This document shows positions 1,322 to 64,000 of a DNA stretch of 64,000 nt, one piece after another. How positions within the stretch are numbered: the first letter of the stretch is position 1; every line of letters begins with the position of its first letter. Source of the DNA: Protonemura montana (Eukaryota; Arthropoda; Insecta; Plecoptera; Nemouridae); NCBI GenBank assembly GCA_947568835.1, contig OX387609.1, positions 16,699,208 through 16,763,207 on the forward strand. Direction: 5' to 3'. A program made the position numbers and the translations under genes. Under the pieces are notes generated by a model, which had not been told where the DNA came from, did no database searches, and was given only the letters and a program-made list of their open reading frames with translations.

Positions 1322-2068
1322 TTAACCTTATATAAAAGCCTTAAAATGTGATGTTCAACTTTTTAGTTTGTGGGTGGGTGGCTGGCTGGCTGGCTGGGAT
1401 GTAACCGGCCGCTCTACTGGTTATGGAAATTGTGAAATGAGACTCAAAACGTACGAAAATGGGCTAGAATTTTTCATAATTAACTTTTCCATTGGCAGGC
1501 GACATTTTCACAGCGATTTAAAATCATGTTAATGGTGAAAAGTTGCTAAATATGACGGCAAGATATCTCAGAGCCAGGCAATACAGCTCGATTTTTAAAA
1601 CTCTTTTTATACCAAAGTTTTTCTAGCCTTGAGCTCCACGGTTATTTTTCATGCATTTGTAATAAAGTTGTTGATGTAATTGAGAAAAAACACATTCAAT
1701 TGCGATCGTTTAACGTGAAAAAGAATTAATTTTGCTAATAAACTGACAGCTTTGATCAATTGTTTGCTTTTTTGACACCACGGCAAGGTGTACGAAATCG
1801 TGAATGTATCTTTTCGGCAGTGCATTTAGGAAATACAAACGTCAAATTTAAACGTCAAAGTCAACGTCAATGTCAAATTCAATTTCAAAATCTCCAAAAC
1901 TGAACGGAAAAACGTGTGAAATTGGCTTCTATTGTTCAAATACAGTTTAAAATCCCGCTTCGTCTTTTTCACGATGATTTAAAAGTGTTTTAGTATAGTA
2001 AAGTATCAAAAATATTGTTGGTGTTCGGCTATCAAGATACAAAAGAGTCACTTGATTGATCTCGACAT

Positions 2069-4382
2069 TGTATGGTATTGTATATGATTGTATTATACTG
2101 CATGGTATTGTATGGTATTTTATTGTTATGTATGGTATTCTTTGGTATTGGATGTTTTTGGATGGTATTTAATATTATTTTTCTATATTGTATGGTATTG
2201 AATGAAAATGTATGGTATTCTTTAGAATTCGACAGTATTCTATGGTATTCTATGGTATTCTATGGTATTCTATGGTATTCTATGGCGTTCTATGGTGTTC
2301 TATGGTGTTCTATGGTGTTCTATGGTGTTCTATGGTGTTCTATGGTATTCTATGGTATTCTATGGTATTCTATAATATTCTATTAATTTCTATGGTATTC
2401 TATGGTATTCTATGATATTCTATGGTATTCTATCGTATGCTATGGTATTATATGGAGTGCTATGGTATTCTATGATATTCTATGGTTTTCTATGGTATTA
2501 TATGGTATTCTATTGTATTGTACGGTATTCTATGGTATTCTATGGTATTCTATGGTATTCTGTGGTGTTCTATGGTATTCTATGGTATTCTATGGTATTC
2601 TATGGTATTCTACGGTATTTTATGGTATTCTATGGTATTTTATGGTATTCTATGGTATTCTTTAATATTCTATGAAGTTCTATGGTATTCTATGATATTG
2701 TATGGTATTGTATGGTATTTTTTGGTATTGTATGGTATTGTATGGTATTCTATGGTCTTCTACGGTATTCTATGGTATTCTATGGTATTCAATGGTTTTC
2801 TATGGTATTTTATAATAATCTACGGAGTTCTATGGTATTATATGGAGTTAATGGTATTCTTTGGTGTTCTATAGTGTTTTATGGTGTTCTATGGTTTTCT
2901 ATGGTGTTTTATGGTATTCTATTGTGTTCTATGGTATTCTATTGTGTTCTATGGTATACTATTGTGTTTTATGGTATTCTGTGGTGTTCTATGGTATTCT
3001 ATGGTATTCTATGGTATTCTATGGTATTTTATGGTATTTTATGGTATTCTATGGAGTTCTATGGTATTCTATGATATTCTTTGCTATTCTATGGTATTCT
3101 TTGGCATTCTATGGTATTCTTTGGTATTCTATAAAGTTTTATAGTATTCTATTATATACTATGGTATTTTATAGAGTTCTTTGGTATTCTATGATATTCT
3201 ATGGTATTCTATGGTATTCTATGGTATTCTATGGTAATCTATGGTGTTATATGGTGTTTTATGGTGTTCTATGGTATTCTATGGCATTCTATGGTATTCT
3301 ATGGTATTCTATGGTATTCTATGGAGTTCTATAGAATTCTATGGATTTCTATGGTATTATATTGTTATCTAAGAATTATATGGTATTCTTTGGTATTCTA
3401 TGGTATTCTATGGTATTTTATGGTATTCTATGGTATTCTATGGTATTCTTTGGTATTCTATGGAGTTCTATGGTATTCTTTGATATTGTATGGTATTCTA
3501 TGGTATTCTATGGAAATATGATTTTATTGTATGGTATTGTATGGTTTTCTATGGTTTTCTATGGTATTCTATGGTATTATATGGTAATCCATGGTATTCT
3601 ATGGTATTCTATAGTATTCTATGGTATTCTATGGTATTCTATGGTATTCTATAGTATTCTTCGGTATTCGAAGGTATTCTTTGGTATTCTATGGTATTCT
3701 TTGATATTGTATGGTATTCTATGGTATTCTATGGAATTCTATGATATTGTATGGCATTGTATGGTATTCTATGGTATTCTATGGTATTCTTTGATATTCT
3801 ATGGTATTCTATGGTATTATATGGAATTCTATGATATTCTATGGTATTCTATGGTATTCTATGGTATTCTATGGTATTGTATTGTATTCTATGGTATCCT
3901 ATGGTATTGTATGGTATTGTTAGGTTTTGTTTGGAAGTGTATGGTATTTAATGTTTTTGGATGGTATTCTATGAAATTTTATGGGTTTCTTTGATATAAT
4001 ATGGTTCTCTATGGTATTTGGAGGTATTCGATAGTATTATTTGGAATCCTATGATGTTGTATGGAATGGTATGGTTTTCCATATGTTCCTATGGGTTTCT
4101 TTATTATTTTATGGTATTTTTTGGTATCCTCTGGTATTTTATGAGTTTCAATGGATTTCTATGGTATAAGAAGATACTTTATGGTGTTGTTAGGAATTGA
4201 ATGTTATTCGATGATACAGTTTGGTATTCGTAGGTATTGTATGGTATTGTATGGTATTGTATGATATTGTTTGGTATTTTATGGGTTTGTTTGGTATTTT
4301 ATGGCATTTTATGGTATTGTATTGTATTGAATGGAATTTTATGGTTTTCTTAGGGTTTCTTTGGTATTGAATGGTTTTCTAT
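2069..4382 (+). repeat. 10-bp satellite, unit E1
   Basis: About 2.3 kb of CTATGGTATT decamers, most regular between about 2230 and 3480. The right edge (about 3910-4380) is degenerate and repeats the same degenerate text as 690-1238, so this edge is inherited with the unit and did not arise by independent decay. Confidence 0.95.
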
Positions 4383-4439
4383 CAAAGAAAACTCGAGACA
4401 CGTTTAAACCAAAATGCCCACTCCCTCAAAATCGTAAGG

Positions 4440-4465
4440 TGCCGTTAGGCAGCGGGTACTGCTAG
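4440..4465 (+). other. Helitron 3' terminus, junction 2 (N to A)
   Basis: TGCC 4440-4443, loop GTTA, GGCA 4448-4451, spacer GCGGGTACTG, CTAG 4462-4465. This is the N-type end (GGCAGCGGG). The next base starts autonomous unit E2. Confidence 0.75.
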
Positions 4466-5451
4466 TTAACCTTATATAAAAGCTTTAAATTGTGATGTTC
4501 AACTTTTTAGTTTGTGGGTATATGGCTGGGTAGCTGGCTGGGATGTAACCGGCTGCTCTACTGTTTATGGAAATTGCGAAATTCGACTCGAAACGTACGG
4601 AAATGGGCTAGAATTTTTCAGTGTTAACTTTTACATTGGCAGGCGACACTTTCACAGCGATTTAAAATCATTTTCATGGTGAAAAGTTGCTAAATATGAC
4701 GGCAAGATATCTCAGAGCCAGGCGATGCAACTCGATTTTTAAACTTTTTTAATACTCAAGTATTTCTAGCCTGGAGCTCCACGGTTATTTTTCATGCATT
4801 CGTAATAAAGTTGTTGATGTAATTGAGAGAAAACACATTAAATTACGATCGTTTTACGTGAAAAAGAATTATTTTGCTAATAAACTGACAGCTTTGGTCA
4901 ATTGTTTGCTTTTTGGTCACCACGGCAAGGTGTTCAAAATCGTGAATGTATCTTTTCAGCAGTGGATCATCAGGCCAAATTAAACGTCAAAATGGGTTGA
5001 AATGTCAAACTATCTACTAAAACCCCTTTGTTTCTGGCGAAAATCGGTCAAAAACGACAGTAAATGGTTATAATTTGTACATTATTTCAAAGCACTATAT
5101 GAAACGCGAAATTTTTAGGTGAGTTGATGGGATACGGCGATTTAAACAGGATTTTAAAAGCAACTTCATATGAAACAGGTAGGTAAAGAAAAAGTTTGAC
5201 TAAAATACAGACGTGAAATTGTATTTATATTGCACATTTTGTGTTCAATTGTGTTTCTTTAATGAGTTTTCAGATATATTTAGTAGTTATTTAACCCGTA
5301 ATTAATTACCTAACCTCTTAAGACACATTATTATGATCACTGTCCGCAATAATTTGACTTCTGACTTCATTCATTTACAGCGTGTAGCATCGACAGCTTC
5401 TTATGGCACGTAATTTAAATTGTCGCGCGTGGTGTAAAGTTTGAATTTGCC
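4466..5451 (+). other. 5' terminal region of E2
   Basis: It holds the terminal TATATAAAAG motif, a G-rich tract at about 4515-4545, the inverted repeat TAACC/GGTTA common to all units (here changed to GTTTAT), and sequence shared with N units up to about 4980. After that it follows the autonomous type (AAATGGGTTGAAATGTC). I see no gene in it. Confidence 0.6.
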
Positions 5452-5635
5452 TGACGTCATTTTACGTAGCGGGATGTTGGCTTAGCGCTTTTTGATCGGC
5501 ATCTACGCTCGGCAATTAGTCACACTCCCAAAGCTCGCCAACCGCCATTTGCTATAGCAGTTAGTATAGCATGAGAGTGCGGATTACCTACACGGCGAAA
5601 CACTCTTGTGGGGAAGAATTTCGTCGCTATTCAAG
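5452..5635 (+). promoter_or_regulatory. Probable promoter and 5' exon of the E2 Rep-helicase gene
   Basis: TGACGTCA, the palindromic CREB/ATF site, lies at 5452-5459 and is followed by TTTTACGTAGC. The downstream stretch to TTCAAG at 5635 is conserved in all four autonomous units and ends in a good splice donor. There is no clear TATA box, so the start of transcription is a guess. Confidence 0.4.
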
Positions 5636-6135
5636 GTAATCTTATTTCAGATTTAATTTGCATGTCACAATATCCACTAATAGTCCACCCCTAATATCAT
5701 CAAGTAATTCACTTATTTATTGTGATTTTATAGCGTTAAGCTTCTAAATTATTATTAAAATTATCGTTCATCATCAAGACTGGAAAGCATACATTTTGCC
5801 CGTCTTGTGGATATTTCCATGACGTCACTTTTACGTAGCATGATGCAATCGCTCGACGCGATTCTCATCCCCCTCCCCAACCCTCCCATGCCCACCGTTC
5901 CAACAATTAGAAGTGTGTTCAACATGGCGTCCAAGCTCGCATTCGAAGCAAATTAGCATATTTCTTTGTAAAGAAACTGAAGTGATTGTTGTGCATATTA
6001 AAGCATGCATTTAGACTGGCATGATATTTGCGTGAGGTCATTTTTACAAAACATGGCGGTTGGGTCGTGCTCGGCCACGCTCCGCTTCAGCTCGGCGACG
6101 CTAGGCACTACTAAAGCCTCGCTTTCTTCACACAG
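5636..6135 (+). other. Putative 5'UTR intron, E2
   Basis: Donor CAAG|GTAATC at 5635/5636 and acceptor CTTTCTTCACACAG directly before the ATG at 6136. The interval contains a second TGACGTCA (5820-5827) and upstream ATGs that would be removed by splicing. The call rests on sequence only. Confidence 0.5.
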
Positions 6136-9100
6136 ATGCCACCCAAGAAGCGTGTAAATCTGACGTCTCGGAAGGGCGGGAAAGGTGCAACGGCAAGAGC
6201 GGAGAGCGCGGCGGCGAAGAAAAGGGCTGCTGCTGACGAGAGAGCGAGGACGAGAGAGACGGCCGAGCACGCCGACCATCAGGCAACTGCTAGCCCGTCG
6301 ACGTCGACGCTCAACGAGCAGCGTCCTTTTCTTTCCGCTATTCTCGAAGAAGCCCCGGTGAGTGTCTTAAAGCATGATTCATTATTAGAACAGGCCGCCC
6401 CCGCTTCTCTTCCAGCTTTTTATGATCAACCCTCAACAAGCCGCTATCTGCATTCCTTTTCCGACAATGTGCCGTCTGTACTCCCATCCCTTGACCAGAC
6501 TCAGATCCTGGAAAATTCAGTTGGCCAGCTCCAAGAGGACAAGAACGTGCAAGTAGCAGCAAACGAACGAAGTGCCCGACTAGCGGAAAAAGCTAGAAAT
6601 GCTCGCCAGCGCAGAAAGGCTGAGGATGAGGCCCAGCGTCTTCTGCGTCTGGCCCAGGTTGCCGAGTTGAAGCGTCGACGACTAGACGAAGCTTCTGAGT
6701 GACGACGCCTACAGCTTCTTGCTGAAAAGGCCGAGTCTGAGCGCCTCCGCTTGGCAAAATGTACGGAAGAACAGCGCTTTCAGCGACTGGCCCTTAAGGC
6801 ACAGGCAGAGCGTCGCCGCTTGAGTGACGAAGCTGACGAACAGCGCCTTCAGCGATTGGCCCTTAGGGCAGAGTCAAAGCGTCGCCGCATAAGTGACGAA
6901 GCTGACGAACAGCGTATTCAGCGATTGGCCCTTAAGGCAGAGGCAGAGCGTCATCGCTTGAGTGTAGAAGCCAACGAACAGCGCCTTCAGCGATTGGCCC
7001 TTAAGGCAGAGTCAGAGCGTCGCCGCTTGAGTGACGAAGCTGACGAACAGCGCCTTCAGCGACTAGCCCTTATGGCAGAGTCCAAGCGTCGCCGCTTGAG
7101 TGACGAATCTGAGGAACAGCGCCTTCAGCGATTAAGCCAGAAGGCAGTTCAAACGCAGTCTGAAAGGCAGCATGAGACTCCAGAGGCGCGCGAGAGCCGT
7201 ATAGTCGCCGCGCGGGAGCAATCTCAGCAGCGTCGAAATGCCGAGACCAGGGATAAGCTCGCGGCGTTAGAAGTGGAAGTCTCTCAGCGCGCTGAGGAGG
7301 AGGCGTCTCAACGCGCCCAAGAGGCTGAACTAGAGCAAAGCCAGCGAGTCGCGGTCGAGGCTATTGACGTGGCAGATGATCAGTTTGAACCTGATCTTGC
7401 TCCAGTGAACCTTCACCCTTTCCACTTGGAGGCTGCACGGCAAGACGTCACTGACGTCGCCCTATTTCACTGCGGCAGCATGGACGAAGTATGCAGGGTG
7501 TGTGGCGCTCTGTACTTCGCAGGAGAGCGTCCTTCTGACAAAATTTATAAACTCTGTTGTCACTCGGGCAACGTAATCATTGAGCCTCTCCTCGCGTATC
7601 CCGATTTAATGCATGCGTTGCTGACCGGAGATCATTGCGAGTCTAAGAACTTCCGCAAAAACATCCGGTCGTACAACAGTTCGCTCTCCTTCGCTTCAGT
7701 CGGAGTTAAGACGGACATCCCCCAGGGCCGTGGCACATACTGTTTTCGTGTCCATGGCAACATCCAGCACAGGATCGGCCATATGGGGCAGGCGGTGCAG
7801 AAGCCCCTCTATTCGCACCTGTACTTTCTTGACGCGGAACAAGCGAAGACGCATCGAATGGACAGGCGCCAGAATGCTAATCTGCTACCCAACCTGCTTC
7901 ATGAGCTGGACGCGCTGGTTCGCGAAATAAATCCTTTTGCCCAAGGGCTTAAAACGCTAGGTCAGGTGGAGGCCGACGACAGGATCCGTGCAGCTGCCGA
8001 GGGGCGACCCGAGGTCATGGCCGAACTGCGTTTCGTGGATGACCGACGGCGGCTGTACGAAAATCCTACGGCCCACGAGGTGGCCGTTGTTTATCAGAGC
8101 GTTGACGGTGGCATGCCTCCTCTAGGACGTGATATTCGTATCCATACTCGTGGCGGATTTATTGAGCAGCTGTCTGTCCTGTCGCCCAACACGGATCCGC
8201 TCAGCTACGTGCTGTTGTTCCCGCGTGGAGAACCCGGCTGGCAACGAGGTATGCCGCACACCAGGCAATCTAAGCACAGCGTCGTCACTCTAATGGAGTT
8301 TTATAGCCATCGACTCCACGAGCGTGTCGGCGCCTTTCATCCAGTGCTGCACGCCGGCAAGCTGACGCAGCAGTTTATGGTAGATGCCTATATCAAGGTT
8401 GAGGGCAATCGCCTTGAGTTCGTCATCAGGAACCAGAAAACGCTGCGCGCCGAACTCTACAGTGGGCTCATGGACCACTTGGCGAACCGTGCTGAGCGGC
8501 AGGGCTGCAATGTCGGGAAGATGGTGATTCTGCCTTCCAGTTTCATCGGAAGCCCCAGGCATTGCCAGCAGCTATATCAAGACGCTATGAGTATCGTCAC
8601 CAAGTTTGGAAAACCCGATCTTTTCCTTACTATGACGTGTAATCCGAAGTGGCCTGAGATTCAGACGAGCCTAGCGGCGTACGAAAGGGCAGAAGACCGA
8701 CCCGATCTCACCGCGCGAGTATTCCAACTTAAACTCAAGGAGCTGATGTCTGATCTCACCAAGAGGCACGTGCTGGGCGTTCCCATGGCTCACTTCCACG
8801 TGATCGAATTCCAAAAACGTGGACTCCCTCACGCTCACATCCTGGTAATCCTTCGCGACGAGGACAAGATCCGCACTCCCGAGGAGGTAGACGCACTTAT
8901 CTGTGCCGAGTTGCCCGATCCGGTGACCGAGGAGAGACTGCACAAGGTCATCGTGTCGTCGATGATCCACGGCCCGTGCGGCGCTCGGAACATGTCCTCT
9001 GTGTGCATGGAGGACGGAAAGTGTAAGAAGAAGTTCCCCAAGTCGTTCACAGATGTGACTGTGGTCAACGAGGGGGGTTTCACCGTCTATCGCCGTCGAG

Positions 9101-11748
9101 AGAGCGGGCAGACGCATACCATCTCAGGAAGAGTGGTCGACAACCGAGACGTAGTGCCTTACAACAAGTACTTAAGCTCCAAGTTTGACTGCCACCTGAA
9201 CATCGAGCACTGTGGATCCGCGAAGACGGTCAAGTACCTGTGCAAGTACGTGTACAAAGGTCACGACTGTGCCAGGGTCCAGCTCCGCGTCTCTGTCCCC
9301 GCGGAGGGCGATCATGAGCCACGTCCAGCGCACGGTGCCCAGCAAGAGTTGGTGTGGGACGAGGTCTCACAGTTCATCGACTCTCGCTACGTGAGTCCCC
9401 AAGAGGCTGCGTGGAGAATTTTCGGATTTGAAATGCACGAAAAGTCGCACACTATCATCCGTTTGGCGATCCACCTCGAGGGTGACCACATGGTCACGTT
9501 CCGTCCTGGAGACGAGGAAGCCGCAGCAGAACGCGGCAGGGCTGCGCTGACTACGCTGACGGCATGGTTTGCGCTGAATAGTAGCAACCCGGCGGCACGG
9601 CAGTACAAGTACATCGACATCCCGTACCACTTCCGTTTCGAGGGCAAAGCGTGGAAGCCACGAAAGCGAGGTGCCGGCTCCATCATCAGCCGAATGTACT
9701 CCGTGACGCCCCGGCAGATCGAGCGATACCATCTTCGTCTCCTTTTGCTACACGTCGTCGGCGCCACCTCATTCGAGGAAGTGCGCACGTTCCAGGGTAG
9801 GGTTTACGCTACCTTCAAGGAAGCTGCCATCGCACGCAACCTGCTAATGGACGACGACGAGTGGCAGAAATGTCTGCAGGAGGCGGTTGCTATAAAGATG
9901 CCAAACGAACTTCGTCAGCTGTTTGCCATCATTTGCGCGTTCTGTCAGCCTCTTGACCCGCTGTCTCTATGGGAGCGTTTCAAGGGCGATTTCTGCGAAG
10001 ATTTCGCCCGAGAACACGACCCCATCGAGGCAGAACAGTTGGCCCTGAATTCCATCCAGTCCGTCCTTGCCCTACACCGCCTGACCAACGCCGAAATCGG
10101 TTTGCCGGCTCCTCGAGTGCCAGTCATCGTTGCTGTCGACGAGCAGTTCGACCAGACCGCCGAAAGGGAAGAGGCCGAGGAGAACTTGGTGAAGCTCAAC
10201 GGCAGGCAGCGCGTGGCATTCGACGCGGTGATGGCAGCAATCGACGACCCGAACGCCGAGCAGAGGTGCTTCTACCTGGACGGCCCGGGCGGCAGCGGGA
10301 AGACCTTCCTATACAACACCCTCATCAGCACGCTGCGAGCCCGAGGCGAGCGAGCCGTGGCCGTCGCGTGGACGGGCATTGCGGCGACGTTACTGAAGGG
10401 AGGGAGGACCTGCCACTCGCGATTTCGATTGCCTGTTCCGATTGTGGAAAACAGCACGTCTGGCGTGAAGCCCAACTCCGCCGAGGGCGCTTCGCTGAGG
10501 GCGGCCAAGGTCATCATCTTGGATGAAGGACCCATGGCGCCTCTGCTGGCCCTGAACGTGATCGAGCGGACGCTAAGAGACGTGACCAACGATGAGCGTC
10601 CGTTCGGCGGAAAGGTGATCGTTATCGGCGGGGATTTTAGGCAGTGCCTCCCAGTCGTTCGAAATGGCAACCGAACGACCATAGTCGAGCAATGCATTAA
10701 GCGTGGCGCGCTTTGGTCGTTGTTCCGCACCCTCGAGCTGCGCGCGAACATGCGCGCCAACCCAGGCGAAGTAGAGTTCGTCGAGTGGCTCTTGCGTGTC
10801 GGAAACGGCGAGATTTTGAATGACTGCCACCTCCCGGATGACACCATCGCATTACCTGTCCAATGCGTCGTGGACTGCGTCATTGACGCCGTCTTCGGCA
10901 CGAGCATTAGTGCTGCCGAGATGACCGTGATGCAAGACCATGCCATCCTCTGCCCGAAGAACGTGGAGTCTTTGAACATCAATGACAACGTTCTTGAGCG
11001 CCTCGAAGGTGACGTGTTCGAATACTGCAGCGCCGACACTGTCGATGTCAGTGAAGGCGAAGATGGCGACGTTTTGGCTACCGATTATCCCGTAGAATAT
11101 CTAAATTCATTAACGCCATCCGGGATGCCACCGCACAAGCTTCGTCTGAAAGTTCATGCAATCGTGATGCTCATGAGGAACGTCAACGTGAGAGCCGGCC
11201 TTTGCAATGGGACTCGACTCAGCGTTGTTGCACTCCACGAGCACGTGATCGACTGCAGGATCATCGGAGGGCGCTGTGCGGGACGACGCACTTTCCTATG
11301 TAGAGTCAACCTAACTCCCTCGGACATTGGCATGCCCTTTACGATGACAAGGCGCCAGTTTCCGATCCGTCTGGCATTCGCCATGACCATCAATAAAGCC
11401 CAGGGTCAATCTTTAAAGAGGGTGGGAATTCATTTAGAAAAACCAGTATTCGGACACGGTCAGCTATACGTGGCGCTTTCTCGGGCTCGCTCTTTGGACT
11501 CGATCTTCGTGGCAGTCGCCGGTAACGAGGCGCAGGGCAAGTTGATCGTCTCGAGCAACACCACCTTCACCAAGAACATCGTGTACCAGGAGGTGCTCGA
11601 GATTCATGCGCCGAACCACCAGGCAGCGGATCCTTCCTCGCGTAGTGGCTATCAAGAGGCTGACCAGCAGGCCCTTGAGCAGTCGCTTAGTCAACTCGCT
11701 GTATCGGATGCGGATGAAGAAGTTCCAATGGACACCTCCTCCTCCTAA
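6136..11748 (+). pseudogene. Helitron Rep-helicase, copy 1 (in-frame TGA at codon 189)
   Basis: The frame from ATG 6136 to TAA 11748 has 1,871 codons, the same as the intact copies, with a single interruption: TGA at 6700-6702 where E4 and E7 have GAA. No frameshift is needed, and the two open segments are in the same frame. The stop falls at the start of the 23-residue charged repeats, before every catalytic motif. Downstream, HUH (from 8830), the two-tyrosine motif and all helicase motifs are unchanged. The first in-frame ATG after the stop is at 7072, inside the repeats, so a shortened Rep-helicase from there is possible but unsupported. The remaining sequence differs from copy 2 at few positions, which points to recent inactivation. 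Confidence 0.85.
6697..7146 (+). repeat. 69-bp coding minisatellite in copy 1
   Basis: Six full 23-residue units and a 12-residue partial unit. The theme is DEQRLQRLALKAEAERHRL plus four acidic or small residues. Units have private changes here (EEQRFQR, RISDEA, RIQRLAL, SVEANEQ). The first unit contains the TGA. Confidence 0.85.
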
Positions 11749-12050
11749 ATCCTATCATTGTTCTATCCCTTACATTTGCAATAGCGGTAACATTTCCTAG
11801 ATAAATTTAAATTCAGTAAGGCTAGGTAGGGCAGACCAGGAACCGTGACTAGCACGGCAGGTAGCAACCCAATTCCCATATATTTCACCATGCTGACACG
11901 CTTTTCTGCTGCAGGTATAAAGCACCGGACGCCGCATAGCCCTTTAACTTCACGACCATTGCGCTCGCATGTGGACACTCTAACGGAACTGCTCCTCCCA
12001 GAGCTAGACAATTATGCATGTAAATTAATTGATAGATTATATTGTACATA
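11749..12050 (+). other. 3' flank of the Rep-helicase gene in E2
   Basis: About 300 bp directly after the stop codon, nearly identical in all four autonomous units. Short frames on both strands look conserved only because the DNA is. I recognise no gene. Confidence 0.5.
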
Positions 12051-12530
12051 CATTTAGTAAAGTAGTTACTTCTAACTAATAGTATTAGAAATGCAGCCTG
12101 CTGTTTTCCATCTGCATGTCATGCATGTTCCAAAAAAAATAAAAATAAAAATAAAAAACATATCGTAGATTTATTAAAGTAGTTACTAAGTAGTAAGTAG
12201 TAGTAGTTGGTAAGCAAGTAGTTTATAGTTATGCAACCTGCTGTTTTCCATCTGCATGTCATGCATGTTCAAAAAAACAAAAAAACAAAAAAAAAATCAT
12301 AGATTTAGTAAAGTAGTTACTAAGTAGTAAGTAGTAGTAGTTGGTAAGTAAGTAGTTAATAGTTATGCAACCTGCTTTTTTCCATCTGCATGTCATGCAT
12401 GTTCAAAAAAACAAAAAAACCAAAAAAAAATATCATAGATTTAGTAAAGTAGCTACTAAGTAGTAAGTAGTAGTAGTTGGTAAGTAAGGAGTTAATAGTT
12501 ATGCAACCTGCTGTTTTCTATCTGCATGTT
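12051..12530 (+). repeat. A-rich tandem repeat, about 118-136 bp x 4 (E2)
   Basis: Each unit begins ATTTAGTAAAGTAG, continues through AAGTAGTAGTAGTTGG and ATGCAACCTGCTGTTTTC, then TGCATGTCATGCA (a perfect inverted repeat around one T), and ends in an A-rich run. Units start at 12051, 12169, 12303 and 12439. AATAAA at 12138-12143 is a candidate polyadenylation signal 390 bp after the stop codon. Confidence 0.85.
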
Positions 12531-12812
12531 TGCAATTTTTTTAAGGTCACAATCTTACTTTCGTGTCGGTCTTTTTACTGCATGTTTCTCTTTTCTTGAT
12601 TCCATCTTGGAATGTCAAACCAACTAACCACCAAGCATGATAGCATTGCACCAGTCTAAAAACTGAACAATGCATCCTACCTATCTGACACAGTTGAATA
12701 TTGCATGAATCCTTGCATGTCCGCACATCAGAGATTCCTGTTGCTTGCAACGGGCTGCACAATCTTTGATAGTGTAAGGCAGAGGCGATGTAGTGTGTGA
12801 CGATCGCCATGC

Positions 12813-12839
12813 TGCCGGGGCGGGATGGGGGCCCCGGCA
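12813..12839 (+). other. Internal GC-rich hairpin, E2
   Basis: Perfect 9-bp stem TGCCGGGGC/GCCCCGGCA around the 9-nt loop GGGATGGGG, followed by TAACAATTATTTTTAAAA. It is by far the strongest GC hairpin in the unit, yet it lies about 860 bp before the presumed 3' terminus. Confidence 0.75.
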
Positions 12840-13675: not shown

Positions 13676-13701
13676 TGCCGTTAGGCATCGGGTACTGCTA
13701 G
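13676..13701 (+). other. Helitron 3' terminus, junction 3 (A to N)
   Basis: TGCC 13676-13679, GGCA 13684-13687, spacer TCGGGTACTG, CTAG 13698-13701. This is the A-type end (GGCATCGGG), preceded by GGGATAAGAACAACAGG. Confidence 0.75.
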
Positions 13702-19476: not shown

Positions 19477-19481
19477 ATCTG

Positions 19482-49883: not shown

Positions 49884-49909
49884 TGCCGTTAGGCAGCGGG
49901 TACTGCTAG
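49884..49909 (+). other. Helitron 3' terminus, junction 9 (N to N)
   Basis: TGCC 49884-49887, GGCA 49892-49895, CTAG 49906-49909. It is followed by the E2-like 5' end of E9. Confidence 0.75.
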
Positions 49910-53497: not shown

Positions 53498-53629
53498 TTT
53501 AGCTGTGGTCCTTTTTAAAGAATTTGGATAGGGCATCAAAGAAAACTCGAGAAAGTTGTCGATGTTTTATGGATTGTTTATAATGTGGACAGTTTAAACC
53601 AAAATGCCCACACCCTCGACATCAACTGC

Positions 53630-53655
53630 AGCCGTTAGGCAGCGGGTACTGCTAG
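53630..53655 (+). other. Helitron 3' terminus, junction 10 (N to A), AGCC variant
   Basis: AGCC 53630-53633, GTTA, GGCA 53638-53641, CTAG 53652-53655. As at junction 7, the unit downstream is autonomous. Confidence 0.7.
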
Positions 53656-54985
53656 TTAACCTTATATAAAAGCTTTAAAATTGTGATGTTCAACTTTTTA
53701 GTTTGTGGGTAGCTGGCTGGGTGGGTGGCTGGGATGTAACCGGCCGCTCTACTGGTTATGGAAATTGCGAAATGAGACTCAAAACGTACGGAAATGGGCT
53801 AGAATTTTTCAGAATTAACTTTTACATTGGCGTGCGACATTTTCACAGCGATTAAAAATCGTTTTCATGGTGAAAAGTTGCTAAATATGACGGCAAGATA
53901 TCTCAGAGCCAGGCGATGCAGCTCGATTTTATAACTATTTTAATACTCAAGTTTTTCTAGCCTCGAGCTTTGCGGTGATTTTTCATGCATTCGTAATAAA
54001 GTTTTTGATGTAATTGAGCGAAAACACATTCAATTGCGATCGTTTTACGTGAAAAAGAATTAATTTTGCTAATAAACTGACAGCTTTGATCAATTGTTTG
54101 CTATTTTGACACCACAGCAAGGTGTACGAAATCGTGAATGTATCTTCTCAGCAGTGGATCATCAGGCCAAATTAAACGTCAAAATGGGTTGAAATGTCAA
54201 ACTATCTACTAAAACCCCTTTGTTTTTGGCGAAAATCGGTCAAAAACGACAGGAAATGGTTATAATTTGTACATGATTTCGAAGCATGATATGAAACGCG
54301 ACATTTTTAAGGTGAGTTGATGGCATACGGCGATTTGACAGGATTCCAAATGCCATTTCATATGAAACAGGTAGGTAAGGAAAAAGTTTGACTCTTTACA
54401 GGCGTAAAAATTGTATTTTTATTGCACATTTTGTGTTCAATTGAATTTCTTTAGTTTAATTGTGTTTCATAAAGGTATAAACATCTTGCCGATTTAAGCC
54501 GAAATTGTTCAAATACGACGCATACTATTCAACCCCAGCCTAGACAAGATTCCACCACCAATTTCAAACGGAAATGATATTTCCGACTTTTATGCAAATC
54601 ACCTGTGGGTTAACTTTCCATTGCTAGCAACCTAAGCATGGAATATGGATTTCTTAACAACCAAACTATACTAAACATGTTTTTTAGAGATTATTCCGAC
54701 AAATCTTGATTTTGAGTGACAGATCGCAAAAACAGGTGACAATTCTTTTCCATCGACGTAAGAAGCCCTAAAAAAAATAATAATTTTCAAGACTGCCGTG
54801 AATTTGCAACAGGTTTTCAAACGCAAAGTGTTTAGCGAGAACATTTTTATTTAAATTTGTGTTTTTTTTACCGCGCAAATACGTAATTGGTACCTATATC
54901 AAGGTACCTATTAATTGTTTTGAATGCGAAAAACAATGCATTCACAATTTCTTTGGCAATTTTAAAGGCTGTCCTGAACATTTGG
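53656..54985 (+). other. 5' region of E10
   Basis: Nearly identical to E7 through about 54750, then private changes (AGAAGCCCTAAAAAAAATAA). The 70-bp block is at 54586-54655. No gene seen. Confidence 0.6.
54586..54655 (+). repeat. Direct repeat, left copy (E10)
   Basis: Partner of 55408-55477, now only 822 bp away because the satellite between them is short. Confidence 0.8.
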
Positions 54986-55400
54986 CATAGCATAGGACAG
55001 CAAAGCATAGCATAGCATAGCAAAGCATAGCATAGCATAGCATAGCATAGCATAGCATAGCATAGCATAGCATAGCATAGCATAGCAAAGCATAGCATAG
55101 CATAGCATAGCATAGCAAAGCATAGCAAAGCAAAGCAAAGCATAGCTTATCAAAGCAAAGCATAGCAAAGCATAGCATAGCATGGCATAGCATAGCATAG
55201 CATAGAATAGCATAGCATAGCATAGCATAGCATAGAATAGCATAGAATAGCATAGCATAGCTTATCAAAGCATAGCATAGCATAGCAAAGCATATCATAG
55301 CAAAGCATAGCATAGCAAAGCATAGCAAAGCATAGCAAAGCATAGCAAAGCAAAGCAAAGCATAGCATAGCAAAGCATAGCATAGAATAACAAAGCATAG
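54986..55400 (-). repeat. Pentamer satellite CATAG/CAAAG (E10)
   Basis: About 83 pentamers. Lacks the AT-only island. Both edges (GGACAG near 55004 and CAAAGCATAGCAATCTGAC at the end) are homologous to those in E4, so the length change is internal. Confidence 0.95.
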
Positions 55401-55407
55401 CAATCTG

Positions 55408-55477
55408 ACTTTAATGCAAATCACCTGTGGGTTTAATTTCTATTGCTAGCATCCTAAGCATGGAATACGGATTTTAC
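55408..55477 (+). repeat. Direct repeat, right copy (E10)
   Basis: ACTTTAATGCAAATCACCTG and onward. Has AGCATCCTAAGC where E4 has AGCAACCTAAGC. Confidence 0.8.
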
Positions 55478-55504
55478 AGGTTTTATATCTAGAGCTCTAT
55501 TCAG

Positions 55505-56119
55505 GTTATTTGAGATCAGCTGGCTGGACCCTATGTTCTATCCAGGTTATTTGAGATCAGCTGGCTGGATCCTATGCTCTATCCAGGTTATTTGAGATCA
55601 GCTGGCTGGATCCTATGCTCTATCCAGGTTATTTGAGATCAGCTGGCTGGACCCTATGTTCTATCCATGTTATTTGAGATAAGCTGGCTGGATCCTATGC
55701 TCTATCCAGGTTATTTGAGATCAGCTAGCTGGATCCTATGCTCTATCCAGGTTATTTGAGATCAGCTGGCTGGATCCTATGCTCTATCCAGGTTATTTGA
55801 GATCAGCTGGCTGGATCCTATGCTCTATCCAGGTTATTTGAGATCAGCTGACTGGATTCTATGCTCTTTTCAGGTTATTTGAAATCAGCAGGCTGGATCC
55901 TATGCTCTATCCAGGTTATTTGAGATCAGCTGACTGGATCTTATACTCTATCCAGGTTATTTGAGATCAGCTGGCTGGATCCTATGCTCTATCCAGGTTA
56001 TTTGAGATCAGCTGGCTGGATCCTATGCTCTATCCAGGTCATTTGAGATCAGCTAGCTGGATCCTATGCTCTATCCAGGTTATTTGAGATCAGCTGGCTG
56101 GATCCTATGCTCTATCCAG
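55505..56119 (+). repeat. 41-bp satellite x 15 (E10)
   Basis: (56120-55505)/41 gives 15 units. Variant units (GGACCCTATGTTC; GACTGGATTC) recur in a pattern that suggests duplication of blocks of several units. Confidence 0.95.
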
Positions 56120-56222
56120 GTTATTTTAAATCAGCAGTTTGTATCTTTACATCTATTGGGCAATGGGCTTTAATAATGCCTTCTGAATGTATATTAAAAG
56201 ACATATTTTAAAAAGAAATATA

Positions 56223-56418
56223 TCCCAGGTCTGAGGACCTAGGTAATGGCCTAGGGCCATATTTGAGTAATGATCTGGCCATCGGGCATGCCCGCAGAGC
56301 ATAGGATAGCTACTGGTGAAGAGGCAAAAGGCTTATTTATCGAAAGGGCCCAAAACTATATTTTCTTATTCATTTTCTTAGTTCTTTAGGTGGTGGTCCC
56401 ATAAAAGGCTTTAAAAAG
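56223..56418 (+). repeat. Modules Y then X in the 5' part of E10
   Basis: Y 56223-56315 with CGGGCATGCCCG, X 56341-56418. A copy of ATTTTGTGCTCAATTG, the deletion-end repeat of E2, follows at 56431-56446. Confidence 0.65.
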
Positions 56419-56647
56419 GCACAGGTGCACATTTTGTGCTCAATTGTGTTTCTTTAATGAGTTTTCAGATGAATTTAGTAGTGATTTAAGGCGTAATTAA
56501 TTAGCTAACCTCTAAAGACACATTATTATGATCACTGACCACAATAATTTGACTTCTGGCTTCATTCATTTACAGCGTGTAGCATTGACAGCTTCTTATG
56601 GCACGTAATTCAAATCGTCGCGCCTGGTGTTCAAGTTTGAATTTGCG

Positions 56648-56831
56648 TGACGTCATTTTACGTAGCGGGATGTTGGCTTAGCGCTTTTTGATCGGCATCT
56701 ACGCTCGGCAATTAGTCACACTCCCAAAGCCCGCCAGCCGCCATTTGCTATAGCAGTTAGTATAGCATGAGAGTGCGGATTACCTACACGGCGAAACACT
56801 CTTGTGGGGAAGAATTCCGTCGCTATTCAAG
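56648..56831 (+). promoter_or_regulatory. Probable promoter and 5' exon, E10
   Basis: TGACGTCA at 56648-56655. The exon-like end TATTCAAG is at 56831. Confidence 0.4.
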
Positions 56832-57328
56832 GTAATTTCATTTCATATTTAATTTGCATGTCACAATATCCAGTAATAGTCAACCCCTAATATCATCAAG
56901 TGATTCAATTATTTATAGTGATATTATAGCGTTTAGCTTCTAAATTATTATTAAAATTATCGTTCATCATCAAGACTGGAAAGCATACATTTTGCCCGTC
57001 TTGTGGATATTTCCATGACGTCACTTTTACGTAACATGATGCAATCGCTCGACGCGATTCTCATCCCCCTCCCCAACCCTCCCATTCCCACCGTTCCAAC
57101 AATTAGAAGTGTGTTCAACATGGCGTCCAAGCTCGCATTCGAAGCAAATTAGCATATTTCTTTGTAAAGAAACTAAAGTGATTGTTGTGCATATTAAAGC
57201 ATGCATTTAGACTGGCATGATATTTGGGTGAGGTCAATTTTGCGAAACATGGCGGTTGGTTCGTCCTTAGCCACGCTCCGCTTCAGTTTGGCGACGCTAG
57301 GCACTAAAACCTCGCTTTCTTCACACAG
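56832..57328 (+). other. Putative 5'UTR intron, E10 (497 bp)
   Basis: Donor CAAG|GTAATT, slightly weaker than the GTAATC of the other copies. Acceptor TTTCTTCACACAG. The second TGACGTCA is at 57016-57023. Confidence 0.45.
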
Positions 57329-60300
57329 ATGCCACCTTAGAAGCGTGTAAATCTGACGTCTCGGAAAGGCGGGAAAGGTGCAACGGCAAGAGCGGAGAGC
57401 GCGGCGGCGAAGAAAAGGGCTGCTGCTGACGAGAGAGCGAGGACGAGAGAGACGGCCGAGCATGCCGACCATCAGGCGACTGCTAGCCAGTCGACGTCGA
57501 CGCTCGACGAGCAGCGTCCTTTTCTTTCCGCTATTCTCGAAGAAGCCCCGGTGAGTGTCTTAAAGCATGATTCATTATTAGAACAGGCCGCCCCCGCTTC
57601 TCTTCCAGCTTTTTATGATCAACCCTCTACAAGCCGCTATATGCATTCCTTTCCCGACAATGTGCCATCTGTGCTCCCATCCCTTGACCAGACCCAGATC
57701 CTGGAAAATTCAGTTGGCCTGCTCCAAGAGGACAAGAACGTTCAAGTAGCAGCAAACGAACGGAGTGCCCGACTAGCGGAAAAAGCTAGAAATGCTCGCC
57801 AGCGCAGAAAGGCTGAGGATGAGGCCCAGCGTCTTCTGCGTCTGGCCCAGGTTGCCGAGTCGAAGCGTCGACGACTAGACGAAGCTTCTGAGGGACGACG
57901 CCTACAGCTTCTTGCTGAAAAGGCTGAGTCTGAGCGCCTCCGCTTGACAAAATGTACCGAAGAACAGCGCCTTCAGCGACTGGCCCTTAAGGCAGAGGCA
58001 GAGCGTCGCCGCTTGAGTGACGAAGCTGACCAACAGCGCCTTCAGCGACTAGCCCTTAAGGCAGAGTTAAAGCGTTGCCGCTTGAGTGACGAAACTGACG
58101 AACAGCGCCTTCAGCGACTGGCCCTTAAGGCAGAGTCAAAGCGTCATCGCTTGAGTCACGAAGCTGACGAACAGCGCCTTCAGCGACTAGCCCTTAAGGC
58201 AGAGGCAGAGCGTCATCGTTTGAGTGACGAAGCTGACGAACAGCGCCTTCAGCGATTGGCCCTTAAGGCAGAGTCAGAGCGTCGCCGCTTGAGTGACGAA
58301 GCTGACGAACAGCGCCGTCAGCGACTAGCCCTTAAGGCAGAGGCAGAGCGTCATCGCTTGAGTGCCGAATCTGACGATCAGCGCCTTCAGCGATTAAGCC
58401 AGAAGGCAGTCCAAACGCAGTCTGAAAGGCAGCATGAGACTCCAGAGGCGCGCGAGAGCCGATTAGTTGCCGCGCGGGAGCGATCTCAGCAGCGTCGAAA
58501 TGCCGAGACCAGGGATAAGCTCGCGGCGTTCGAAGTGGAAGTCTCTCAGCGCGCTGAGGAGGAGGCGTCTCAACGCGCCCAAGAGGCTGAACTAGAGCAA
58601 AGCCAGCGAGTCGCGGTCGAGGCTATTGACGTGGCAGACGATCAGTTCGAACCTGATCTTGCTCCAGTAAACCTTCATCCTTTCCACTTGGAGGCTGCAC
58701 GGCAAGACGTCGCTGACGTCGCCCTCTTTCACTGCGGCAGCATGGACGAAGTATGCAGGGTGTGCGGCGCTCTGTACTTCGCAGGAGAGCGTCCATCTGA
58801 CAAAATTTACAAACTCTGTTGTCACTCGGGCAACGTAATCCTCGAGCCTCTCCTCGCGTATCCCGATTTAATGCATGCGTTGCTGACCGGAGATCATTGC
58901 GAGTCTAAGAACTTCCGCAAAAACATCCGGTCGTACAACAGTTCGCTCTCCTTCGCTTCAGTCGGAGTTAAGACGGACATCCCCCAGGGCCGTGGCACAT
59001 ACTGTTTTCGTGTCCATGGCAACATCCAGCACAGGATCGGCCATATGGGGCAGGCGGTGCAGAAGCCCCTCTATTCGCACCTGTACTTTCTTGACGCGGA
59101 ACAAGCTAAGATGCATCGAATGGACAGGCGCCAGAATGCTAATCTGCTACCCAACCTGCTTCATGAGCTGGACGCGCTGGTTCGCGAAATAAATCCTTTT
59201 GCCCAAGGGCTTAAAACGCTAGGTCAGGTGGAGGCCGACGACAGGATCCGTGCAGCTGCCGAGGGGCGACCCGAGGTCATGGCCGAACTGCGTTTCGTGG
59301 ATGACCGACGGCGGCTGTACGAAAATCCTACGGCCCACGAGGTGGCCGTTGTTTATCAGAGCGTTGACGGTGGCATGCCTCCTCTAGGACGTGATATTCG
59401 TATCCATACTCGTGGCGGATTTATTGAGCAGCTGTCTGTCCTGTCGCCCAACACGGATCCGCTCAGCTACGTGCTGTTGTTCCCGCGTGGAGAACCCGGC
59501 TGGCAACGAGGTATGCCGCACACCAGGCAATCTAAGCACAGCGTCGTCACTCTAATGGAGTTTTATAGCCATCGACTCCACGAGCGTGTCGGCGCCTTCT
59601 ATCCAGTGCTGCACGCCGGCAAGCTGACGCAGCAGTTTATGGTAGACGCCTATATCAAGGTTGAGGGCAATCGCCTTGAGTTCGTCATCAGGAACCAGAA
59701 AACGCTGCGCGCCGAACTCTACAGTGGGCTCATGGACCACTTGGCGAACCGTGCTGAGCGGCAGGGCTGCAATGTCGGGAAGATGGTGATTCTGCCTTCC
59801 AGTTTCATCGGAAGCCCCAGGCATTGCCAGCAGCTATATCAAGACGCCATGAGTATCGTCACCAAGTTTGGAAAACCCGATCTTTTCCTTACTATGACGT
59901 GTAATCCGAAGTGGCCTGAGATTCAGACGAGCCTAGCGGCGTACGAAAGGGCAGAAGACCGACCCGATCTCACCGCGCGAGTATTCCAACTTAAACTCAA
60001 GGAGCTCATGTTTGATCTCACCAAGAGGCACGTGCTGGGCGTTCCCATGGCTCACTTCCACGTGATCGAGTTCCAAAAACGTGGACTCCCTCACGCCCAC
60101 ATCCTGGTAATCCTTCGCGACGAGGACAAGATCCGCACTCCCGAGGAGGTAGACGCACTTATCTGTGCCGAGTTGCCCGATCCGGTGACCGAGGAGAGGC
60201 TGCACAAGGTCATCGTGTCGTCGATGATCCACGGCCCGTGCGGCGCTCGGAACATGTCCTCTGTGTGCATGGAGGACGGAAAGTGTAAGAAGAAGTTCCC

Positions 60301-63010
60301 CAAGTCGTTCACAGATGTGACTGTGGTCAACGAGGGGGGTTTCACCGTCTATCGCTGTCGAGAGAGCGGGCAGACGCATACCATCTCAGGAAGAGTGGTC
60401 GACAACCGAGACGTAGTGCCTTACAACAAGTACTTAAGCTCCAAGTTTGACTGCCACCTGAACATCGAGCACTGTGGATCCGCGAAGACGGTCAAGTACC
60501 TGTGCAAGTACGTGTACAAAGGTCACGACTGTGCCAGGGTCCAGCTCCGCGTCTCTGTCCCCGCGGAGGGCGATCATGAGCCACGTCCAGCGCACGGTGC
60601 CCAGCAAGAGTTGGTGTGGGACGAGGTCTCACAGTTCATCGACTCTCGCTACGTGAGTCCCCAAGAGGCTGCGTGGAGAATTTTCGGATTTGAAATGCAC
60701 GAAAAGTCGCACACTATCATCCGTTTGGCGATCCACCTCGAGGGTGACCACATGGTCACGTTCCGTCCTGGAGACGAGGAAGCCGCAGCAGAACGCGGCA
60801 GGGCTGCGCTGACTACGCTGACGGCATGGTTTGCGCTGAATAGTAGCAACCCGGCGGCACGGCAGTACAAGTACATCGACATCCCGTACCACTTCCGTTT
60901 CGAGGGCAAAGCGTGGAAGCCACGAAAGCGAGGTGCCGGCTCCATCATCAGCCGAATGTACTCCGTGACGCCCCGGCAGATCGAGCGATACCATCTTCGT
61001 CTCCTTTTGCTACACGTCGCCGGCGCCACCTCATTCGAGGACGTGCGCACGTTCCAGGGTAGGGTTTACGCTACCTTCAAGGAAGCTGCCATCGCACGCA
61101 ACCTGCTAATGGACGACGACGAGTGGCAGAAATGTCTGCAGGAGGCGGTTGCTATAAAGATGCCAAACGAACTTCGTCAGCTGTTTGCTATCATTTGCGC
61201 GTTCTGTCAGCCTCTTGACCCGCTGTCTCTGTGGGAGCGTTTCAAGGACGATTTCTGCGAAGATTTCGCCCGAGAACACGACCCCATCGAGGCAGAACAG
61301 TTGGCCCTGAATTCCATCCAGTCCGTCCTTGCCCTACACCGCCTGACCAACGCCGAAATCGGTTTGCCGGCGCCTCGAGTGCCAGTCATCGTTGCTGTCG
61401 ACGAGCAGTTCGACCAGACCGCCGAAAGGGAAGAGGCCGAGGAGAACTTGGTGAAGCTCAACGGCAGGCAGCGCGTGGCATTCGACGCGGTGATGGCAGC
61501 AATCGACGACCCGAACGCCGAGCAGAGGTGCTTCTACCTGGACGGCCCGGGCGGCAGCGGGAAGACCTTCCTATACAACACCCTCATCAGCACGCTGCGA
61601 GCCCGAGGCGAGCGAGCCGTGGCCGTCGCGTGGACGGGCATTGCGGCGACGTTACTGAAGGGAGGGAGGACCTGCCACTCGCGATTTCGATTGCCTGTTC
61701 CGATTGTGGAAAACAGCACGTCTGGCGTGAAGCCCAACTCCGCCGAGGGCGCTTCGCTGAGGGCGGCCAAGGTCATCATCTTGGATGAAGGACCCATGGC
61801 GCCTCTGCTGGCCCTGAACGTGATCGAGCGGACGCTAAGAGACGTGACCAACGATGAGCGTCCGTTCGGCGGAAAGGTGATCGTTATCGGCGGGGATTTT
61901 AGGCAGTGCCTCCCAGTCGTTCGAAATGGCAACCGAACGACCATTGTCGAGCAATGCATTAAGCGTGGCGCGCTTTGGTCGTTGTTCCGCACCCTCGAGC
62001 TGCGCGCGAACATGCGCGCCAACCCAGGCGAAGTAGAGTTCGTCGAGTGGCTCTTGCGTGTCGGAAACGGCGAGATTTTGAATGACTGCCACCTCCCGGA
62101 TGACACCATCGCATTACCTGTCCAATGCGTCGTGGACTGCGTCATTGACGCCGTCTTCGGCACGAGCATTAGTGCTGCCGAGATGACCGTGATGCAAGAC
62201 CATGCCATCCTCTGCCCGAAGAACGTGGAGTCTTTGAACATCAATGACAACGTTCTTGAGCGCCTCGAAGGTGACGTGTTCGAATACTGCAGCGCCGACA
62301 CTGTCGATGTCAGTGAAGGCGAAGATGGCGACGTTTTGGCTACCGATTATCCCGTAGAATATCTAAATTCATTAACGCCATCCGGGATGCCACCGCACAA
62401 GCTTCGTCTGAAAGTTCATGCAATCGTGATGCTCATGAGGAACGTCAACGTGAGAGCCGGCCTATGCAATGGGACTCGACTAAGCGTTGTAGCACTCCAC
62501 GAGCACGTGATCGACTGCAGGATCATCGGAGGGCGCTGTGCGGGACGACGCACTTTCCTATGTAGAGTCAATTTAACTCCCTCGGACATTGGCATGCCCT
62601 TTACGATGACAAGGCGCCAGTTTCCGATCCGTCTGGCATTCGCCATGACCATCAATAAAGCCCAGGGGCAATCTTTAAAGAGGGTGGGAATTCATTTAGA
62701 AAAACCAGTATTCGGACACGGTCAGCTATACGTGGCGCTTTCTCGGGCTCGCTCTTTGGACTCGATCTTCGTGGCAGTCGCCGGTAACGAGGCGCAGGGC
62801 AAGTTGATCGTTTTGAGCAACACCACCTTCACCAAGAACATCGTGTACCAGGAGGTGCTCGAGATTCATGCGCCGGACCACCAGGCAGCGGATCCTTCCT
62901 CGCGTAGTGGCTATCAAGAGGCTGACCAGCAGGCCCTTGAGCAGTCGCTTAGTCAACTCGCTGTATCGGATGCGAATGAAGAAGTTCCAATGGACGCCTC
63001 CTCCTCCTAA
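57329..63010 (+). pseudogene. Helitron Rep-helicase, copy 4 (TAG at codon 4, otherwise open)
   Basis: The ATG at 57329 is followed by CCA CCT TAG (57338-57340), where E4 and E7 have AAG. After that the frame is open to the TAA ending at 63010. The full frame is 69 bp longer than in the other copies because of one more 23-residue repeat, so catalytic motifs are shifted by 23 residues but unchanged. The open stretch contains GTG at 57551, which is not a likely eukaryotic start. The first in-frame ATG is 57641, which would drop 104 residues of the N-terminus but keep repeats, Rep and helicase. A shortened active protein is therefore possible. Private substitutions include LKELMFDL, ERFKDDF and YRCRES. 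Confidence 0.82.
57890..58408 (+). repeat. 69-bp coding minisatellite in copy 4 (7 full units)
   Basis: Seven full units plus a partial one. Unit 1 reads EGRRLQLL where E4 has EEQRLQLL. Units differ in type order from copies 1 and 2, so units have been gained, lost or converted. Confidence 0.85.
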
Positions 63011-63313
63011 ATCCTATCATTGTACTATCCCTTACATTTGCAATAGCGGTAACATTTCCTAGATAAATTTAAATTCAGTAAGGCTAGGTAGGGCAGACCA
63101 GGAACCGTGACTAGCACGGCAGGTAGCAACCCAATTCCCATATATTTCACCATGCTGACACGCTTTTCTGCTGCAGGTATAAAGCACCGGACGCCGCATA
63201 GCCCTTTAACTTCACGACCATTGCGCTCGCATGTGGACACTCTAACGGAACTGCTCCTCCCAGAGCTAGACAATTATGCATGTAAATTAATTGATAGATT
63301 ATATTGTACATAC
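63011..63313 (+). other. 3' flank of the Rep-helicase gene in E10
   Basis: Same as in the other copies. No gene assigned. Confidence 0.5.
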
Positions 63314-63930
63314 ATTTAGTAAAGTAGTTACTTCTAACTAATAGTATTAGAAATGCAGCCTGCTGTTTTCCATCTGCATGTCATGCATGTTCCAAAAAAA
63401 TAAATAAATAAATAAAAAAACATATCGTACATTTAGTAAAGTAGTTACTAAGTAGTAAGTAGTAGTAGTTGGTAAGCAAGTAGTTGATAGTTATGCAACC
63501 TGCTGTTTTCCATCTGCATGTCATGCATGTTCAAAAAAACAAAAAAAAAAATATCATAGATTTAGTAAAGTAGTTACTAAGTAGTAAGTAGTAGTAGTTG
63601 GTAAGCAAGTAGTTAATAGTTATGCAACCTGCTGTTTTCCATCTGCATGTCATGCATGTTCAAAAAAACAAAAAAAACAAAAAAAAATCATAGATTTAGT
63701 AAAGTAGTTACTAAGTAGTAAGTAGTAGTAGTTGGTTAGTAAGTAGTTAATAGTTATGCAACCTGCTGTTTTCTATCTGCATGTCATGCATGTTCAAAAA
63801 AACAAAAAAACAAAAAAAAAATCATAGATTTAGTAAAGTAGTTACTAAGTAGTAAGTAGTAGTAGTTGGTAAGTAAGTAGTTAATAGTTATGCAACCTGC
63901 TGTTTTCTATCTGCATGTTTGCAATTTTTT
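63314..63930 (+). repeat. A-rich tandem repeat x 5 (E10)
   Basis: Units start at about 63314, 63430, 63560, 63694 and 63828, one more than in E2, E4 and E7. AATAAA at 63399-63404 (in TAAATAAATAAATAAA) is the candidate polyadenylation signal. Confidence 0.85.
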
Positions 63931-64000
63931 TAAGGTCACAATCTTACTTTCGTGTCGGTCTTTTTACTGCATGTTTCTCTTTTCTTGATTCCATCTTGGA

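Follow-up and report, generated by a model that had tools for sequence, protein, structure and literature searches.

A mixed head-to-tail array of autonomous and non-autonomous Helitrons in Protonemura montana (Plecoptera), probably built by insertion of single units at the 5' ends of resident copies

Helitrons lying in tandem have been described before: examples from bat, Drosophila, rice and maize have been cited, and three copies in tandem are described in Metarhizium acridum (PMC5148889). In this study, we analyzed a stretch of 64,000 nucleotides of the genome of Protonemura montana (C12:16699208-16763207, contig OX387609.1; hereafter the window, meaning the whole stretch at its full length; the genome comprises 258 Mb in 34 contigs). 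The window is occupied by a head-to-tail array in which long Helitrons with a Rep/helicase gene (A units) and satellite-carrying non-autonomous units (N units) follow one another in a single orientation; short units of ∼0.9-1.1 kb (n units) carry the same ends.

Several described systems are close to this array. Helraiser, or Helibat1, from Myotis lucifugus has a homologous Rep/helicase, a CTAG 3' end and insertion between A and T (A^T) without target duplication, as well as exact joints between 3' and 5' ends, which are known there from circles (PMC4778049). The elements of P. montana differ from it in starting with TTAACC instead of TC and in an N-terminal STPR region of the protein, and their joints are chromosomal and form arrays of many different units. 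An earlier note on this DNA had taken Helraiser as a known source of head-to-tail concatemers; in the main text of that paper, however, the joints serve as evidence for circles, and the words 'tandem' and 'concatemer' do not occur (PMC4778049). In maize, Du et al. (2008) described a G/T joint between unlike elements, explained it by consecutive insertion and already stated models of insertion at the A^T of a resident 5' end or the G^T of a resident 3' end, the order of which was not settled by their line data; bat cases are cited there too (PMC2267711). That case concerns one pair of gene-carrying elements, whereas here we have 645 exact joints and intact autonomous units. Plant centromeric Helitron arrays (Xiong et al., 2016, as presented in PMC12628747) are also tandem, with several to hundreds of repeats. 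Their units are reported to be truncated, in many cases with several 5' ends but one 3' end, and terminator loss is given as the explanation (PMC12628747), whereas the complete units of the window array carry both ends. HINE/DINE elements, such as Cg_HINE of oyster, have Helitron-like ends around a central tandem repeat, as do the N units, but they are Helentron-type (PMC7492417), whereas the likely partner of the N units is a canonical-type Helitron inserting at A^T. Fungal FoHeli elements were found inserted at another copy's 5' end or close to it, in one case 2 bp upstream, but these are mostly Helitron2-type and isolated cases (PMC5148889). Among the papers listed by a literature search over titles and abstract openings, with few subscription papers, there was none on mixed arrays of intact autonomous and non-autonomous Helitrons at such a scale. 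What is new is not the tandem arrangement, which was already known, but the scale, the intact autonomous units, the mixed sources and the strict orientation.

The window contains ten copies of the CTAGTTAACC joint, all on the + strand, where 0.03 would be expected by chance; none of 100 shuffled windows had ten or more. These CTAG/TTAACC joints start at positions 1318, 4462 (4462..4471 may serve as an example), 13698, 16697, 28631, 31640, 34970, 46906, 49906 and 53652, and they bound nine whole units and the beginning of a tenth (negative positions and those above 64000 are window coordinates extended into fetched flanking DNA). From left to right on the + strand, the units are N0, satellite-bearing and non-autonomous, of which the 3' part lies at 1..1321 (whole unit -2413..1321, 3735 bp); N1, non-autonomous (1322..4465, 3144 bp, with a (ATGGTATTCT)n core); A2, autonomous-type with an open Rep/helicase core (4466..13701, 9236 bp); N3, non-autonomous and of the N-alpha type (13702..16700); A4, autonomous, with (GCATA)n and 41-bp repeat arrays (16701..28634, 11934 bp); N5, N-alpha type with a duplicated 9-bp 5' start (28635..31643); N6, non-autonomous (31644..34973, 3330 bp); A7, autonomous (34974..46909, 11936 bp); N8, N-alpha type (46910..49909); N9, non-autonomous (49910..53655, 3746 bp); and A10, autonomous-type (53656..64000, ending outside the window at 65218). 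The final array unit, n11 (65219-66137, 919 bp), is followed by other DNA.

Including the fetched flanks, the array reaches from beyond -30000 to 66137, and all 18 units delimited in it have both ends. To the left of N0 lie units of 4738, 2892, 2989, 3172, 915 and 11566 bp, and exact N-alpha 5' sequences at C12:16620609 and C12:16638734 (the intervening DNA unread) suggest that the array may continue leftward by ∼50 kb. The Rep/helicase match, the joints and the unit map bear out what the earlier note had recognized as autonomous and non-autonomous Helitrons in one orientation, and the joint positions confirm its unit order, N A N A N N A N N A, after a left N fragment that is the end of N0. 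The regular alternation that it had stressed was a local accident, since the upstream order is A-N-N-N-N-n-A-N and the A/N order is not regular. Its gapless joints hold as ten exact CTAG/TTAACC joints, except that the N5 joint has 9 additional bases, TTAACCTTA.

Self-comparison of the window showed long direct repeats of high identity in a single orientation, with an apparent period of 18.27 kb. This period does not represent repetition of a whole block, as N6 and N9, which occupy corresponding positions in it, show 92.2% identity in the 5' 760 bp; because these two units differ, a fixed higher-order repeat of the A+N+N kind was ruled out.

N and A units have ∼520 bp of 5' DNA in common at ∼90-95% identity, with the exception of Nm4 (only 82-85% alike to A units there), and ∼30 bp in common at the 3' end. 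The centre of the N units is the (ATGGTATTCT)n tandem repeat, and the list of open reading frames (ORFs) contains none of at least 250 aa in the N units of the window. Their Helitron-like ends, central tandem repeats and lack of Rep/helicase correspond to the HINE anatomy, without the Helentron link. Distant units of the window can be extremely similar: A4 and A7 are 99.9% identical across the last 9 kb, A4, A7 and A10 hardly differ over their first 1000 bp, and N3, N5 and N8 are 100% alike in the 5' 760 bp and the 3' 120 bp (98.7-100% per 300 bp for N5-N8 and N3-N8, the two comparisons run). Among A units, the Rep/helicase core (∼5000-9000 of the unit) was 98-100% identical per 500 bp, and 5' non-coding parts differed by ∼3-8% between A units sharing a near-identical core. 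An A unit plus N-alpha was also considered as a fixed moving block and rejected, since an exact N-alpha 5' end lies 9-16 kb downstream in the same direction for only 3 of the 17 exact A4-type 5' ends in the genome, two of these combinations being within the window by hand count.

The joints are by no means confined to the window. A 21-base version of the joint has 645 genomic copies and its reversed control none; the bare 10-base joint is less telling (929 versus 402 in the control). Exact 18-base 5' ends number 973, of which 660 are preceded by G and 313 by another base, and 645 of them (66%) stand directly after CTAG, suggesting that insertion of new copies next to existing ones builds up satellite-like arrays. 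Exact head-to-head joints were absent from the genome when up to two mismatches were allowed, whereas they would be expected if insertion at the palindromic A^T took no account of orientation. On C1-C3, to which the cluster count is confined, 37 of 79 clusters contained a joint, including 23 of the 57 lying beyond 1.6 Mb from contig ends. Near misses, in which CTAG and the following 5' end are separated by 3-24 other bases, were found at six places, and ∼0.04 would be expected from 313 random insertions by our estimate. A repeated partial start of 9, 11 or 14 bp after CTAG occurred at five genomic places with the pattern used (window 28635-28660, C12:16635654, C4:685871, C7:617835 and C8:564720). 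A separate observation concerns two arrays running in opposite directions at C1:3725578 and C1:3726008 (L015/L016), whose 5' ends are separated by ∼430 bp of non-unit DNA.

The units joined in this way are different copies. We aligned 56 short units (500-1200 bp only, one duplicate row omitted), among which there were 18 adjacent pairs. On this sample, all 36 units of these pairs had a closer relative in another array than in their neighbor, no adjacent pair reached 98% identity, and neighboring short units differed by 2-14%. One 930-bp type was 99.6-99.8% identical at four loci, once as a solo and in three arrays, where the preceding units were 96.2-97.3% and the following units 93.0-95.9% alike. 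A given order of two units was met again only within one and the same array (4 comparisons) and, in this sample, never between arrays. The same holds for larger units: the six adjacent N-N pairs of the window array are 86.8-93.0% alike in the first 760 bp (N5-N6, N8-N9 and N0-N1, 90-93%), in contrast with the non-adjacent N3, N5 and N8. Because the closest kin lie elsewhere and the neighbors of near-identical units differ, the units seem to move singly and to arrive whole.

The element spans TTAACC...CTAG and is inserted at A^T. Among the matches listed, 100 5' ends were not preceded by G, and 98 of these followed A and 2 followed T; only 15 of the 973 exact 5' ends came after a G other than that of CTAG. 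In 30 fetched loci, T was the next base after every 3' end, and with the pattern used a 3' end without a following T was seen at 6 places genome-wide, as against 504 exact 3' ends obtained with a narrower pattern. The earlier note had set a check beforehand, that the ends of solo copies should coincide with CTAG and TTAACC: solos were found to run A^TTAACC...CTAG^T, five of the six complete short solos ending in CTAG and the remaining one in CTAT. It had also proposed a genome search for solo copies with empty sites, and two empty sites were identified, one for a solo and one for a four-unit array, neither with target duplication. The solo, C1:1356828-1357767, lies within a non-Helitron repeat that has no relation to the short units, and beside L078 there is a copy of this repeat that lacks the solo. 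The four-unit array, C2:569509-577091, interrupts a reversed 939-bp short unit (C2:568980-577501; L033, L034) between an A and a T. When rejoined, its flanks align with other short units at ∼97% identity and with one gap over 600 bases, and 40 bases per side align gap-free with the L055 copy. Taking these flanks for a non-Helitron host repeat proved to be wrong, as they are a reversed short Helitron unit split by the array; it follows that arrays can also begin inside other copies.

With regard to classification, the CTRR form of the 3' end is present as CTAG at all ten window joints, while the 5' end is TTAACC in solos and joints alike and the canonical TC was not seen. The 3' hairpin that had been noted at the junctions would at best be a short stem in one variant (5-6 bp, ∼11 nt before CTAG); a second variant has a 3-bp GCC/GGC stem and a third another fold, and the structure is weak, with fold z-scores of -1.07, -0.51 and -0.26 for the three variants. 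On sequence grounds, the elements can be classified as one group of Helitrons of the canonical type in protein, target and 3' end, with a variant 5' end; because that end is TTAACC rather than TC, we did not file them as textbook canonical Helitrons. Helentrons (Helitron2) have an apurinic endonuclease domain and insert between T and T. This identity was rejected, as insertion is at A^T and none of the eight Pfam matches of the A4 protein is to an endonuclease domain.

Intact Rep/helicase ORFs are present in A4 (21075..26687, + strand, 1870 aa) and A7 (39348-44960, + strand). The A4 protein matches Helitron_like_N (PF14214) at residues 722-904 (5.6e-61) and PIF1 at 1353-1561 (9.6e-57), its N-terminal region has STPR repeats, and residues 326-1822 align with residues 3-1496 of Helraiser (7lcc) with 1280.7 bits. 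PHAHI, from residue 898 on (23766..23780, + strand), is the HUH motif, presumably the catalytic one, and KYLCKYVYKG, from residue 1033 on (24171..24200, + strand), the two-tyrosine motif, has the Helraiser counterpart KYLFKYIYKG. The frame from the start codon is broken early in Am1, A2 and A10 (in A2 by a stop after 188 aa from the start codon at 6136), the open stretches left being 1879, 1681 and 1889 codons, respectively. Over 3447 bases of the Rep/helicase core, seven copies showed pairwise dN of 0.00-0.49% and dS of 0.12-2.24%, low dN relative to dS being what selection on the protein together with recent movement would be expected to leave. All 40 scored genomic copies, out of 306 candidates, were stop-free across the 1149-aa query, and the C14 copy L072 matches A7 at all 1495 non-coding bases compared and departs from it at 2 of 3447 core bases. 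As for location, 34 of these 40 scored copies (266 candidates unscored) lie within 2.2 Mb of a contig end, and the other six are possibly nearer than apparent. The minus-strand ORFs of 255, 350 and 382 aa overlie the Rep gene or (GCATA)n arrays.

On the basis of these results, we consider it probable that the mixed head-to-tail array arose by Rep mobilization of single units to the 5' end of a resident copy, followed by local duplication. Rep from the A units would mobilize each unit singly, as a circle or single strand, and the incoming 3' CTAG would be joined at the 5' end of the resident copy. That end combines A^T (host A, element T) with the site that Rep would be expected to nick, and each joining would leave A^TTAACC in front again. 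Because the resident 5' end offers both A^T and a Rep nick site, the joint would be exact and directional and the site would be regenerated. We infer from this the role of Rep, the stepwise order and growth at the 5' side. Purified Helraiser transposase cleaves single strands between the flank and the 5' TC, and Helraiser prefers AT-rich DNA, most clearly on the future 3'-flank side (PMC4778049); the AT-rich 5' end TTAACCTTATATAAAAG fits this preference. Long arrays, many of them near contig ends, would later be enlarged or reshuffled by local duplication or gene conversion.

Local duplication also happens, adding to stepwise joining. In the C1:282-297 kb array (L001-L011), a 375-bp spacer that matches no short unit is repeated, which indicates segmental duplication including other DNA. 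On C12, the N5-type 9-bp variant joint has its only two genomic copies, 92 kb apart, and a spacing of 6728 bp from N-alpha to A recurs 107 kb apart.

A number of observations weigh against this explanation. The joint within an array is G^T rather than A^T, so that an insertion at such a place would depend on the element end itself being recognized, and the maize line data fit a resident 3' G^T as well as a 5' A^T (PMC2267711). Insertions also occur elsewhere: the host of the C2 four-unit array, a reversed short unit, is another landing place; one copy was inserted in the same direction 9 bp inside a resident 5' end (L081 ∼1507, C14:987091, CTAG^TATAAAAGC); and another was inserted in reverse ∼22 bp inside the 5' end of a short unit (C2:3103205-3106653, L035/L036), at a site resembling A^A. 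Adjacent short units were 94.8% alike compared with 92.2% in size-matched shuffles (p=0.0028), and several pairs share the 3' third at 98-99.7% and the 5' thirds at 92-95%, which implies some link between neighbors (timing, conversion or shared donors). Finally, private substitutions did not differ between 5'-edge (16) and 3'-edge units (6) among the 45 units tested, a set from which eleven duplicates in the C1:282-297 kb and C2:6.43 Mb arrays had been omitted (p=0.55), and age polarity along arrays was dropped for want of this signal.

Rolling-circle read-through, in which the 3' terminator is missed, one or adjoining elements are copied serially and the concatemer is inserted once, would equally give exact joints in one orientation and no exact head-to-head joints, and a four-unit array in one empty site also fits insertion in one step. 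Copies of the same element should, however, be nearly identical, and since units have closer relatives elsewhere than in their neighbors, single-element read-through is disfavored. Read-through into a second donor in trans would likewise yield mixed units and sits well with neighbors being more alike than shuffles, but two-unit orders recur solely within single arrays of the sample, and the near misses with other bases between units resemble separate insertions. We therefore regard read-through, one of three mechanisms put forward in the earlier note, as rather unlikely. Joining could also result from homologous recombination of double-stranded Helitron circles into a resident copy, with no new target cut by the transposase. 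Circles with perfect end joints are known for Helraiser (PMC4778049), copies have long homology, only one orientation would result, and some neighbors have a near-identical 3' third and not 5' third. Such recombination predicts a switch of type at the same internal point, whereas the 930-bp type is near-identical from end to end at its four loci; alignment thirds of the 18 pairs, a coarse test, gave no evident reciprocal switch, and A and N units share little beyond the ∼520 bp of 5' DNA and ∼30 bp of 3' DNA given above. This route appears improbable.

Unequal crossing-over or segmental duplication acting on a single rare seed joint would account for the recurring pairs inside arrays, the repeated 375-bp spacer, the doubled N5 variant and the recurring 6728-bp spacing. 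As the main source of the arrays it is nevertheless quite improbable: it leaves the first joints unexplained, although a joint is present in 23 of the 57 dispersed C1-C3 clusters, N6 and N9 are only 92% alike at corresponding block positions, and near-identical copies lie on other chromosomes, as L072 and A7 do. It is extremely improbable that assembly collapsed or wrongly chained repeat copies, because short arrays of ∼1-kb units are found on many contigs, one with a matching empty site, and neighboring short units differ by enough (2-14%) for long reads to resolve them. Among the mechanisms of the earlier note, repeated insertion at ends is the best supported.

To the right of the Helitron tract, low-score 5S rRNA-like matches were found in L074 at 3654-3771 and 3850-3943 (window ∼67654-67943), with Rfam scores of 52 and 43.5 bits against a gathering threshold of 38, where tandem arrays of 91-92 bp are present. 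A 1.2-kb (ACCAGT)n array lies further on (window ∼71652-72820, L074).

The origin of tandem Helitrons has so far been argued, in the literature surveyed here, from a few pairs and decayed plant arrays. In P. montana, hundreds of exact joints, near-identical moving units, empty sites and an apparently intact, conserved Rep/helicase occur together, so that read-through, stepwise insertion and circle recombination become separable by data. A broader possibility, which we put forward tentatively, is that this Helitron homes to itself: any resident 5' end would be a preferred landing site, fixed to a single base and orientation, which Rep treats as the half-finished start of a transposition and which is restored each time. 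Autonomous and parasitic copies could then stack without limit, and mobile element and satellite would be two states of one process. In these arrays, a transposon that was apparently active recently is connected with the origin of satellite-like DNA, a large part of which lies near contig ends.

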